Under the pieces are notes generated by a model. The model was not told where the DNA came from, did no database searches, and was given only the letters and a program-made list of their open reading frames with translations. A DNA stretch of 64,000 bases from Agrococcus carbonis (GTDB lineage: Bacteria; Actinomycetota; Actinomycetes; Actinomycetales; Microbacteriaceae), in contig NZ_LT629734.1 in NCBI RefSeq assembly GCF_900104705.1, positions 2,232,001-2,296,000 on the forward strand, given 5' to 3'. Shown here piece after piece: positions 19,784-37,035 of this stretch. Position 1 is the first letter of the stretch. Every line of letters begins with the position of its first letter. The translations under genes were made by a program, and so were the position numbers.

Positions 19784-20707
19784 GTGGGACGAGGCAGCGC
19801 GGTGCGGGCGAAAGCGCCCGGCAAGATCAACGTGCACCTCGGCGTGGGCGCGCTGCAGGACGACGGCTACCACGACGTCGCCACCGCCTATCAGGCCGTG
19901 AGCCTGTACGAGTTCGTCGAGGCGACCGAGGCCCCCGACTTCTCGGTGCGCTTCTCGGGGCCCATCCCGCACGAGCACCTCTCGACCGGCGCCGACAACC
20001 TCGCGATCCGCGCGGCGATGCTGCTCGCCCGGCGCGGCCGCGTCACGGGCGGCGTCGCGCTCTCGATCGAGAAGCACGTGCCCATCGCCGGCGGCATGGG
20101 CGGCGGCTCGGCCGACGCCGCCGCGACGCTCGTCGCGTGCAACGAGCTGTGGGATCTGCACCTCGGCCGCGAAGTGCTGCACGAGATCGCGCGCGAGCTC
20201 GGCGCCGACGTGCCCTTCGCGCTCGCGGGCGGCACGGCGATCGGCACCGGCCGCGGCGACCAGCTCTCTCCGGCGCTCGCGAAGGGGCAGTTCCACTGGG
20301 TGCTCGCCTACACCGACGCGGGCCTGTCGACGCCCGACGTCTACCGCGCGCTCGACGAGCATCGCGCGCTCCACGCCGCCGACATCGCACCCGCCCACGA
20401 CGTGCCCACCGTGGATGCGCGGGTGCTGCAGGCGCTGCGGGCCGGCGACGCCGAGATGCTCGCGGAGGCGCTGCAGAACGACCTGCAGGCGCCGGCGCTG
20501 CGCCTCATGCCGCGCCTCGCCGGCACGCTCGAGCTCGGCGAGCGCTCCGGCGCCCTCGCCGGCGTCGTCTCGGGTTCCGGCCCGACCGTGGCGTTCCTGT
20601 GCGACGGGCTCGAGTCGGCGATCGAGCTGCAGGTCTCGCTCTCGGCGGCGCAGCTCATGGCGGTCAAGGTGACCGGCCCCGTGCCGGGAGCCCGCCTCAT
20701 CGACTGA
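19784..20707 (+). CDS. ispE: 4-diphosphocytidyl-2-C-methyl-D-erythritol kinase
   Basis: 307-residue GHMP kinase of the MEP isoprenoid pathway. [15 protein letters not shown] is the N-terminal substrate motif, [19 protein letters not shown] the ATP-binding glycine loop, and [12 protein letters not shown] the third GHMP motif. Together with ispH at 57.5 kb and uppS at 34.5 kb it shows that this organism makes isoprenoids by the MEP route. The mirror repeat array begins about 40 bases after its stop. Confidence 0.95.
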
Positions 20708-20748
20708 GGGGCGCTCCGCCTCTCTCCATCACCGATCTCTCGCGCGCT

Positions 20749-21000
20749 CGAGCGGTCACTCGCGCGTGTGAGCGGTCATTCTCGCGTGTGAGTGGTCACT
20801 CCTGCGCGTGAACGGTCACTCCCGCGTGTGAGCGGTCACTCCTGCGTGTGAGCGGTCACTCCTGCGCGTGAGCGGTCATTCGCGCGTGTGAGCGGTCACT
20901 TGGGCGTGTGAGCGGTCACTTGGGCGTGTGAGCGGTCAATTGGGCGTGTGAGCGGTCAATTGGGCGTGTGAGTGGTCACTTCCGCCCTTGAGCGGTCGAC
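20749..21000. repeat. Mirror array 1, left arm: 13 units of exactly 20 bp
   Basis: Thirteen copies of a 20-base unit whose core is GTGAGCGGTCACT (variants GTGAGTGG and GTGAACGG). The core AGCGGTCA recurs at 20751, 20771, 20791 and so on to 20991 without a single indel. The core contains an inverted pair GTGA-N4-TCAC. The seven to eight bases between cores vary but drift gradually along the array, so neighbours are most alike. The period is not a multiple of three and no credible protein is encoded. Confidence 0.95.
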
Positions 21001-21096
21001 GAGTGCCGCGCGTGAGCCGCCGCCGACGACGCGCGCATGCTGCCGGATCGGGACCTCACGTCCCGGAGGAGCGCACACATCCGGGAGCGCGGGACT

Positions 21097-21350
21097 CACC
21101 GTTCAAGCGCGGCACTGACCGCTCACGCGCGGAGACGACCGCTCACGCGCGGAGATGACCGCTCACGCGCGGAGATGACCGCTCACACGCGGAGATGACC
21201 GCTCACGCGCGGGAGTGACCGCTCACACGTGGAGATGACCGCTCACGCGCGGAGATGGCCGCTCACGCGCGGGAGTGACCGCTCACACGTGGAGATGACC
21301 GCTCACGCGCGGCAATGACCGCTCACGCGCACGACTGGCCGCTCGACAGC
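21097..21350. repeat. Mirror array 1, right arm: 13 inverted units of 20 bp
   Basis: The same unit in the opposite orientation (core TGACCGCTCAC), with GCTCAC or a variant at 21101, 21121 and every 20 bases to 21341. The arms are separated by about 95 bases (21001-21096) of unrelated G+C-rich sequence in which I see no gene. Flank sequence differs from the left arm: here mostly GCGCGGAGA. The right arm stops about 35 bases before the ABC-F gene. Confidence 0.95.
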
Positions 21351-21383
21351 GGGGGCCGGCGGGTGCGGGACAATGGTCGGGAT

Positions 21384-23231
<1,848 letters not shown>

Positions 23232-23282
23232 GGCCGCGGTGGGGCTGCGGTGGGGCTGCGTCGGCCTGCCAGCGCGCTCGGA

Positions 23283-23288
23283 TACAGT
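23283..23288 (+). promoter_or_regulatory. -10 candidate (TACAGT) of the mtrAB-lpqB operon
   Basis: TACAGT lies about 58 bases before the mtrA ATG. No clear -35 was found. GAAGGGAG serves as Shine-Dalgarno nearer the gene. Confidence 0.4.
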
Positions 23289-23346
23289 GGCGAGAGCCGC
23301 GCGGTCGCGGCCCCGCGCGCGCGGGCAGGCACGAAGGGAGCGCCCC

Positions 23347-29025: not shown

Positions 29026-31836
<2,811 letters not shown>

Positions 31837-31845
31837 CGCCGGCCC

Positions 31846-32080
31846 GTGAGTGGTCACTTGCGCACGTGAGTGGTCACTTGCGCACGTGAGTGGTCACTTG
31901 CGCGTCTGAGCGGTCACTTGCGCACGTGAGTGGTCACTTGCGCGTCTGAACGGTCACTTGCGCACGTGAGTGGTCACTTGCGTGTCTGAACGGTCGCTTG
32001 GGCGTCTGAGTGGTCACGTGCGCACGTGAGTGGTCACCTCCGCGCCTGAGCGGTCGGTCGTATGTGTGCGCGGTCGTGAG
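31846..32080. repeat. Mirror array 2, left arm: 12 units of exactly 20 bp
   Basis: Core GTGAGTGGTCACTTG (variant CTGAGCGG, CTGAACGG), with YGGTCAC at 31851 and every 20 bases to 32071; the last two units are degenerate. Flanks here are CGCAC or CGCGT, unlike array 1. Register is perfect. Confidence 0.95.
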
Positions 32081-32118
32081 CGCCGACTGACCCTGAGGCA
32101 AGTCGCCGCTGGTATGAG

Positions 32119-32395
32119 GGAGCGACCGCTCGGCCGCGGGAGTGACCGTTGACGCGCGGGAGTGACCGCTCACCCGCGGAAGTGACCGCTCATCCGCGGA
32201 AGTGACCGCTCACCCGCGGAAGTGACCGCTCACCCGCTGGAGTGACCGTTGACGCGCGGGAGTGACCGCTCACCCGCGGAAGTGACCGCTCACCCGCTGG
32301 AGTGACCGTTGACGCGCGGGAGTGACCGCTCGGCCGTGGAAGTGACCGTTGACGCGCGGAAGTGACCGTTGAGGCGCGGGAGTGACCGCTCGTCG
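32119..32395. repeat. Mirror array 2, right arm: 14 inverted units of 20 bp
   Basis: Inverted core AGTGACCGCTCAC (or AGTGACCGTTGAC) at 32121 and every 20 bases to 32381. About 38 bases of unrelated sequence (32081-32118) separate the arms. The array occupies nearly the entire interval between secA and the convergent protease gene; no other feature is visible there. Confidence 0.95.
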
Positions 32396-32457
32396 TGGTG
32401 CGGCCGGACGCGCCCGCCAGGGCCGCGTGGGGCTGCGCGGTCCGGCGCGCGCCGCGC

Positions 32458-36833: not shown

Positions 36834-36912
36834 GCTCCGCCGGTCCGCTCTGCGGGTCCGCCTTGGGTCTCCGCCCGTCTGCTCTGCGCCTCAGCGGAGC
36901 CCGCGCGCGGCT

Positions 36913-37004
36913 GAGGGTGGTCACGGCGCGCCGTACCGACCGTCGCGAGCCCGGCGTGTCGTGACCACCCCGCGGTCCGCGGCCGGCGTGTCGTGACCAC
37001 CCTC
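36913..37004. repeat. Inverted/direct repeat GGTGGTCACG - CGTGACCACC (x2)
   Basis: GAGGGTGGTCACG (36913-36925) is the exact reverse complement of 36992-37004. CGTGACCACC also occurs at 36960, and the 17-base block ending in it repeats 32 bases later. It shares the GGTCAC word with the mirror arrays. It lies between phoH and the next gene. Confidence 0.7.
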
Positions 37005-37035
37005 GGCGCACGGTCGGCGCGGGGGCGACCGGCGG

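Follow-up and report, generated by a model that had tools for sequence, protein, structure and literature searches.

Structure of the array between ispE and the ABC-F gene

The analysed window is a stretch of 64,000 nucleotides from the genome of Agrococcus carbonis (contig NZ_LT629734.1, positions 2,232,001 to 2,296,000), and the element under study is a mirror-image array of 20-bp units lying between an ispE-like gene and an ABC-F-like ATPase gene, the unit of which also brackets a nuclease-type gene elsewhere in the same genome. The unit has the form N6-TGARYGGTCA-N4 with a period of exactly 20 bp, and the whole array (20743-21351) consists of two arms that face each other. Genes were called throughout with a simple codon-score script rather than a published gene finder. 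The features of the locus are:

19784..20707, plus strand: ispE-like GHMP kinase gene, its 3' end facing the left arm (GHMP kinase domains in Pfam; the name ispE is that of the initial annotation)
20743..21002, plus strand: left arm, 13 units of 20 bp, core TGARYGGTCA
21003..21091, no strand: centre between the arms, outside either array
21092..21351, minus strand: right arm, 13 units of 20 bp in the opposite orientation
21384..23231, plus strand: ABC-F-like ATPase gene, its start inferred from coding score and from sequence common to relatives

The core positions on both strands (13 on the plus strand at 20749-20998 and 13 on the minus strand at 21096-21345, with the innermost cores 97 bp apart) bear out the initial annotation, which had described 13 + 13 mirror units at an exact 20-bp period. 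Its claim that neither arm holds an indel also stands, as the cores, including all 13 of the right arm, are exactly 20 bp apart within each arm despite the output of Tandem Repeats Finder (TRF), which assigned the arms periods of 20 and 60, a match rate of 86-87% and indels of 0% in the left arm and 2-3% in the right. A GTGA-N4-TCAC dyad had been ascribed to each core; in full it occurs only nine times in the array, hence not in every unit, and the exact core TGAGCGGTCA is recurrent (8 + 9 times among the 26 units) rather than universal. A scan of the window for the motif, allowing up to three mismatches, gave 51 matches, 48 of them inside this array and a second one described below, against a mean of 3.5 and a maximum of 8 in 100 shuffles. 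The regularity of the array is far beyond chance.

Over 19 loci of five genomes, spacer identity is 0.73 between adjacent units versus 0.67 between non-adjacent units of the same arm, and 0.54 between opposite arms of a locus versus 0.57 between arms of other loci in the same genome. Because adjacent units are the most alike and opposite arms are no closer than arms of different loci, these values agree with the earlier proposal of local duplication without copying of one arm from the other. An assembly artefact, named beforehand as a possible source of the array, is judged very unlikely, since comparable arrays recur in other assemblies and species, some of them at the same site. A clustered regularly interspaced short palindromic repeat (CRISPR)-like array was rejected because the spacers are near-copies of their neighbours. 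Plasmid-borne relatives were rejected as well, as a megablast search of 19800-23300 against plasmids returned nine records, all within the ABC-F gene and none in the array. Rfam gave no match at the gathering score in the window.

The same unit brackets a nuclease-type gene

The genome is a single contig of 2.77 Mb, and arrays of the unit occur at five of its loci. At one of them, L044 (G000:C1 216.6-217.5 kb, G000 being the present genome), some 1 kb separates the arms, and a minus-strand gene lies between them. The same locus in genome G008 holds an open frame of 342 codons, or 293 from the start preferred by the codon-score script. Searching the genus gave, in addition to G008 itself, 13 genomes out of 23 with matches at 68-82% identity, and a stricter protein search found matches in seven Agrococcus genomes and one other among 349 genomes. 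The gene lies between the same putative thioesterase and ANTAR-regulator genes in 16 genomes, with the thioesterase alone retained in one more; it was therefore inherited in place. At L044, L052 and L087 the nuclease gene stands alone between the arms.

The protein, about 290-340 residues long, is predicted by fold matching and domain models to join an AbiEi-like DNA-binding N-terminal half to a C-terminal nuclease half of the Vsr/EDxHD-homing-endonuclease type, in which Pfam detected MTES_1575 (below the cut-off) and DUF559, with DUF2726 in one of six homologues. E189, D221 and H238 are invariant in 54 homologues and D247 nearly so, and these are presumably the residues that give the EDxHD type its name. 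No family was matched in NCBIfam, and a sequence search for a homologue of protein P0093 with a solved structure found none.

When the flanks of the gene were read without reference to the motif, exact 20-bp arrays were found on both sides at L097, L099-L109 and L113 and on one side at L098, where the available sequence stops some 460 bases beyond the gene. At these loci the arrays face each other, the right arms resembling the left unit more closely in its reversed than in its direct form. The core at the gene is TGARYGGTCA (GGTCA type) in G000, G008 and G017; nine genomes have TGAGTGGCGCC (GGCGCC type), and G001 and G014 share a GGCCA form. Judged by sequence, the same unit and inward layout thus bracket the gene in A. 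carbonis, and its orthologues carry 20-bp mirror arrays with a core that changes from species to species. A residue in the front half of the protein, MAFT-(R/A/S/T)-PARG, is R in three of three GGTCA proteins, A or S in eight of nine GGCGCC proteins and T in both GGCCA proteins; shared ancestry could explain this pattern, and it is not relied on here. In the protein tree the GGCCA pair (94/98) and the GGTCA pair (93/94) each group together.

Distribution of the arrays

The search of the complete genome and of Microbacteriaceae proposed in the initial annotation yielded, in addition to the five loci above, further arrays in other Agrococcus and in one Kineosporia. Among named records, a strict three-unit pattern occurred in Agrococcus lahaulensis, A. 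pavilionensis and Agrococcus sp. HG114 and in a single array of Kineosporia mesophila, in a scan from which records very near the window's genome were possibly excluded. The exact two-unit pattern is present in 8 of 24 Agrococcus genomes, A. carbonis included, and the reversed pattern in none of the 24; the number of matches per species within the genus runs from 0 to 51. Besides those at the gene, GGCGCC arrays were present at further loci, at least 11 in G003, at least eight in G010, at least three in G015 and at least two in G016. The scan for scattered copies covered the GGTCA and GGCGCC units, and both of these, two of the three core types, are scattered, mostly in intergenic positions at the 3' ends of genes.

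The gap downstream of ispE was examined in 23 genomes, and the ABC-F gene was located in 20 of them. An automatic test detected 20-bp arrays in five of these 20, the core being of the GGTCA type in A. carbonis and of the GGCGCC type in G020, G016, G002 and G012. Visual inspection added small 2 + 2 sets in G023 and G018; in G001, G003 and G014 the gap measures no more than 29-38 bases. In the same gap of G008 (L135), inspection by eye revealed a mirror repeat of a different 20-bp unit, GAGGGGTAGCC.

Loci L060, L068 and L071 are one orthologous site in G009, G010 and G015 with a layered structure, GGCGCC units lying outermost and GGTCA units innermost in both arms; the exception is a single GGTCA unit at the outer edge of L068. 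Phase breaks separate sub-arrays at L044, L087/L099 and L090. The window itself contains a second mirror array of the same repeat family (31841-32398), which is absent from the initial annotation; secA lies on one side of it and an opposite-strand gene on the other:

29026..31836, plus strand: secA, its 3' end facing the second array
31841..32080, plus strand: left arm of the second array, 12 units, the innermost decayed
32119..32398, minus strand: right arm of the second array, 14 units

Outside the genus, the Kineosporia mesophila locus (L088:4230-4358) holds GTGAGTGGTCAC units at about 20 bp beside a facing pair, GTGATCATGCAAAGTCTCCCC, and a family gene of genome G473 (L280) is flanked by a TGATCATGCA repeat that resembles this array. 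One-sided arrays with a 20-bp period, for example around GGGACCGGG and GGGYGGTCA, were observed in other genera of Microbacteriaceae (L075-L078).

A wider gene family with its own palindromes

The nuclease belongs to a wider gene family, found in 40 of 43 selected genomes of other Microbacteriaceae in one to eight copies each. The left flank of each family gene was compared with the reversed right flank (350 nt on each side, threshold 40 bits), the Agrococcus set of 70 including array-flanked genes and one outside locus, L150. Matches were obtained for 44 of the 70 Agrococcus genes and 14 of 29 from other Microbacteriaceae, compared with 0 of 152 control genes (five of which reached 30 bits). 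With 900-nt flanks the counts were 49/70 and 14/29, and among array-less family genes alone 16/32 versus 0/63 controls. In a sample of the phylum, three of six Microbacteriaceae loci matched at 350 nt. Direct flank matches were also common (31/70 and 15/29), because palindromes match in both senses.

Many of the matched pieces read as palindromes some 45-60 bp long, with sequences that vary between genes, and many family genes have palindromes of their own on both sides. One of these, GCAGAGTNCCGGNACTCTGC, is the flanking palindrome of L161 and L164; it was counted at 45, 42 and 42 places in G009, G015 and G010, respectively (up to two mismatches; reversed control, 0 places), often at a spacing of 40 bp. 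Ten of its loci were placed, with repeated views of one locus merged and L223 left out, of which five lie between converging and five between tandem genes.

A further small copy lies in the window:

36910..37007, no strand: small mirror copy, 1 + 2, unit GTGGTCACGACACGCCGC, 32 bp spacing

The GTGGTCACGACACGCCGC unit also flanks a second, apparently split family gene of this genome (L152, about 906.5 kb). Repeats with a 41-bp period adjoin other nuclease-family genes in G005 (L117/L172) and G006 (L125).

Interpretation and alternatives

On balance, the array in the ispE gap is probably a dispersed, non-autonomous and expanded copy of a repeat family that belongs to the nuclease-type gene. Binding, cutting and spread by the nuclease are what we infer from these sequence relationships. 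One protein monomer would occupy each 20-bp unit, and a facing pair (-> <-) would form the basic site, in the manner of two AbiEi monomers on facing 23-bp repeats. The nuclease would nick or cut within or beside such pairs, and repair would then add units locally, turning a 1 + 1 palindrome into an n + n array, and would occasionally seed new sites. Enzyme and repeat would thereby co-evolve, as has been proposed for repetitive extragenic palindromes (REPs) and the REP-associated tyrosine transposases (RAYTs). Sites between converging genes may be those where copies do the least harm, or may act as a two-way barrier to transcription or supercoiling. The idea of the initial annotation that the units are protein-binding sites receives indirect support, as the unit brackets an AbiEi-like/nuclease gene and the core varies less than the spacers, the latter partly by construction.

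A broader proposal, which we advance tentatively and with chances just short of even, is that Microbacteriaceae harbour a repeat-nuclease class that reached the REP/RAYT logic from unrelated parts. Each AbiEi-Vsr gene would keep and spread its own palindromes, and those of Agrococcus would have expanded into layered mirror arrays, a record of successive shifts in the sequence preference of the enzyme. Should a Vsr-type nuclease with an antitoxin-like binder indeed maintain its own repeats, this would be an independent origin of the same genomic lifestyle and would give the family, widespread in the selected genomes of other Microbacteriaceae, a testable role. The change of core by species would moreover provide a natural series for reading the DNA recognition of the protein.

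Several observations weigh against the pairing of repeat and nuclease. The L044 gene is frameshifted, being split over two overlapping frames, and spread in this genome would therefore be past, unless the sequence read is wrong; the arrays of A. carbonis may now be orphans. The gene is present without a long 20-bp array in G023, G018 and G013. It is flanked by GGCGCC units in G009, G010 and G015, where GGTCA arrays lie elsewhere, so gene and array do not correspond one to one. In the protein tree, from which the broken G000 gene was left out and in which two of 13 inner branches are well supported, the GGCGCC type is spread over several branches and core type follows the tree only in part. No partner for the unit of the G008 gap was found among the four nuclease-family genes examined in that genome, no nuclease of the family occurs within the 8 kb examined around the Kineosporia array, and no family gene lies within the 3 kb examined around L075-L078. 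Moreover, the family loci are best protein matches rather than a random draw, 26/70 and 15/29 family genes fall below the threshold at 350 nt, and the signal in other families of the phylum sample is weak (3/22 at 350 nt and 4/22 at 900 nt).

Gene context bears on a different explanation, in which the arrays are polar, protein-bound transcription barriers: bound units would halt RNA polymerase arriving from each side, the fusion or some other protein would be a mere binder, and selection would keep the arrays. Converging gene pairs are in excess, as the 28 GGTCA-type array loci in seven genomes (six with one arm recognised, and many representing the same site in different species) comprise 21 converging, six tandem and one diverging pair, or 11, five and one when merged by common flanking gene (n = 17), against 50 converging among 185 neighbour pairs, which were taken from the window and the surroundings of family genes. 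The order of the arms is -> <- in all 22 loci with both arms recognised, which means that both arms present the same sense when approached from the adjoining side, and the ispE gap of five genomes contains 20-bp arrays, of two core types. This explanation is nevertheless unlikely, given that 15 of the 20 genomes with both genes lack a 20-bp array at that site by the automatic test, that the gap shrinks to a few tens of bases in three genomes, and that the number of matches varies so widely between Agrococcus species. A barrier role is also not needed to account for the positions, as REP repeats are likewise extragenic without it.

A passive minisatellite, in which slippage and unequal exchange enlarged a short palindrome and the link to the nuclease arose by chance, would agree with the likeness of adjacent units and with the outermost units of both ispE-gap arms, which deviate from the consensus. 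It would not lead one to expect the same core at unlinked loci, the strict inward layout, the species-wise core at the gene or the family-wide bracketing that is absent from all 152 controls, and we consider it highly improbable.

Least probable is a transcribed hairpin, the other idea of the initial annotation, in which ispE RNA would fold back on itself as a stem of some 250 bp and thereby terminate or stabilise the transcript. The array folds strongly (-490 kcal/mol, z -29, equalled by none of 20 shuffles), but any inverted array folds, and the inverted layout alone accounts for this. In a comparison of 292 units in 38 arms (19 loci of five genomes), core identity between loci was near 0.85, above that of the spacers and partly so by construction, since units were picked by core. 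The own right arm was closer than those of other loci in only 8 of 18 loci. The arms thus do not co-vary, having been homogenised separately, although selection for pairing would be expected to keep the opposite arms of a locus alike; this is evidence against a selected long hairpin. In addition, no intrinsic terminator (a short GC hairpin with a T run) occurs in 20600-21500, and at the nuclease locus the widely spaced arms have a gene between them.

Comparison with known systems

The statement of the initial annotation that no named element has this form holds in part: our searches, outside which subscription journals mostly lay, found no paper on it, yet the layout parallels REP/RAYT. Within the same limits, neither the motif GAGCGGTCAC nor the literature on DUF559, MTES_1575, Vsr, Agrococcus and Microbacteriaceae returned anything linking such repeats to a nuclease; the pairing may be undescribed in print.

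CRISPR arrays and plasmid iterons are also built of regularly spaced direct repeats, some 20 bp long or longer; here, in contrast, the spacers are near-copies, two arms face each other and several chromosomal loci are involved. No cas or rep genes were among the neighbours identified, no search having been aimed at them. The C-terminal half shares its Pfam domains with MTES_1575/DUF559 nucleases, MTES_1575 being described as the Vsr-type restriction endonuclease domain of a giant defence protein (PMC3710099) and Caulobacter VsrA as carrying DUF559 (PMC12907096). The relevant passages of these two papers do not mention flanking repeats, and the present protein differs also in its modest length and AbiEi-like front half.

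The N-terminal half resembles in fold the AbiEi antitoxin of type IV toxin-antitoxin systems, a two-domain DNA-binding protein reported to bind, with positive co-operativity, a pair of facing 23-bp repeats separated by 3 bp (PMC7319586). The sites described here differ in that they flank the gene on either side and recur at other loci, and are not confined to a promoter. No gene for the partner nucleotidyltransferase toxin of AbiE is present between the arms at L044, L052 and L087, whose neighbours are the putative thioesterase and the ANTAR regulator. For the C-terminal half, the fold points to Vsr and to the EDxHD homing endonuclease I-Bth0305I, which according to PMC3943268 dimerises on a target of nearly 60 bp, similar in length to the 45-60 bp palindromes. 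Unlike a homing endonuclease gene, the present gene is fixed at one locus in 17 genomes, outside any split host gene, and its DNA-binding half is AbiEi-like.

The closest likeness is to REP/RAYT systems, with their bacterial interspersed mosaic elements (BIMEs), REPtrons and TIRtrons, in which an enzyme gene bracketed by an inverted palindromic repeat is accompanied by extragenic scatter, arrays and species differences, and for which co-evolution of enzyme and repeat has been proposed; the enzymes linked to REPs in the literature consulted are tyrosine transposases only (PMC2817692, PMC3733652). An enzyme gene between inverted repeat copies is found here too, if not for every family gene (44/70 and 14/29), as are many extragenic copies of the GGTCA and GGCGCC units and of one palindrome. 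The present system differs in its AbiEi-like and Vsr/EDxHD-type halves, as opposed to a tyrosine transposase (HUH, Y1, IS200/IS605 type), and in having head-to-tail runs that face each other where REPs alternate. The GTAG tag occurs on neither strand of the two window arrays, and CGTC, the tag of the other REP group, occurs four and eight times in them, counting both strands. Because neither the Pfam domains nor the fold matches indicate a tyrosine transposase and the GTAG tag is absent, we do not file the system as a member of REP/RAYT. By analogy, its best reading is that of a system working like REP/RAYT with an unrelated enzyme, and if the enzymatic link were shown, it would deserve a class of its own.
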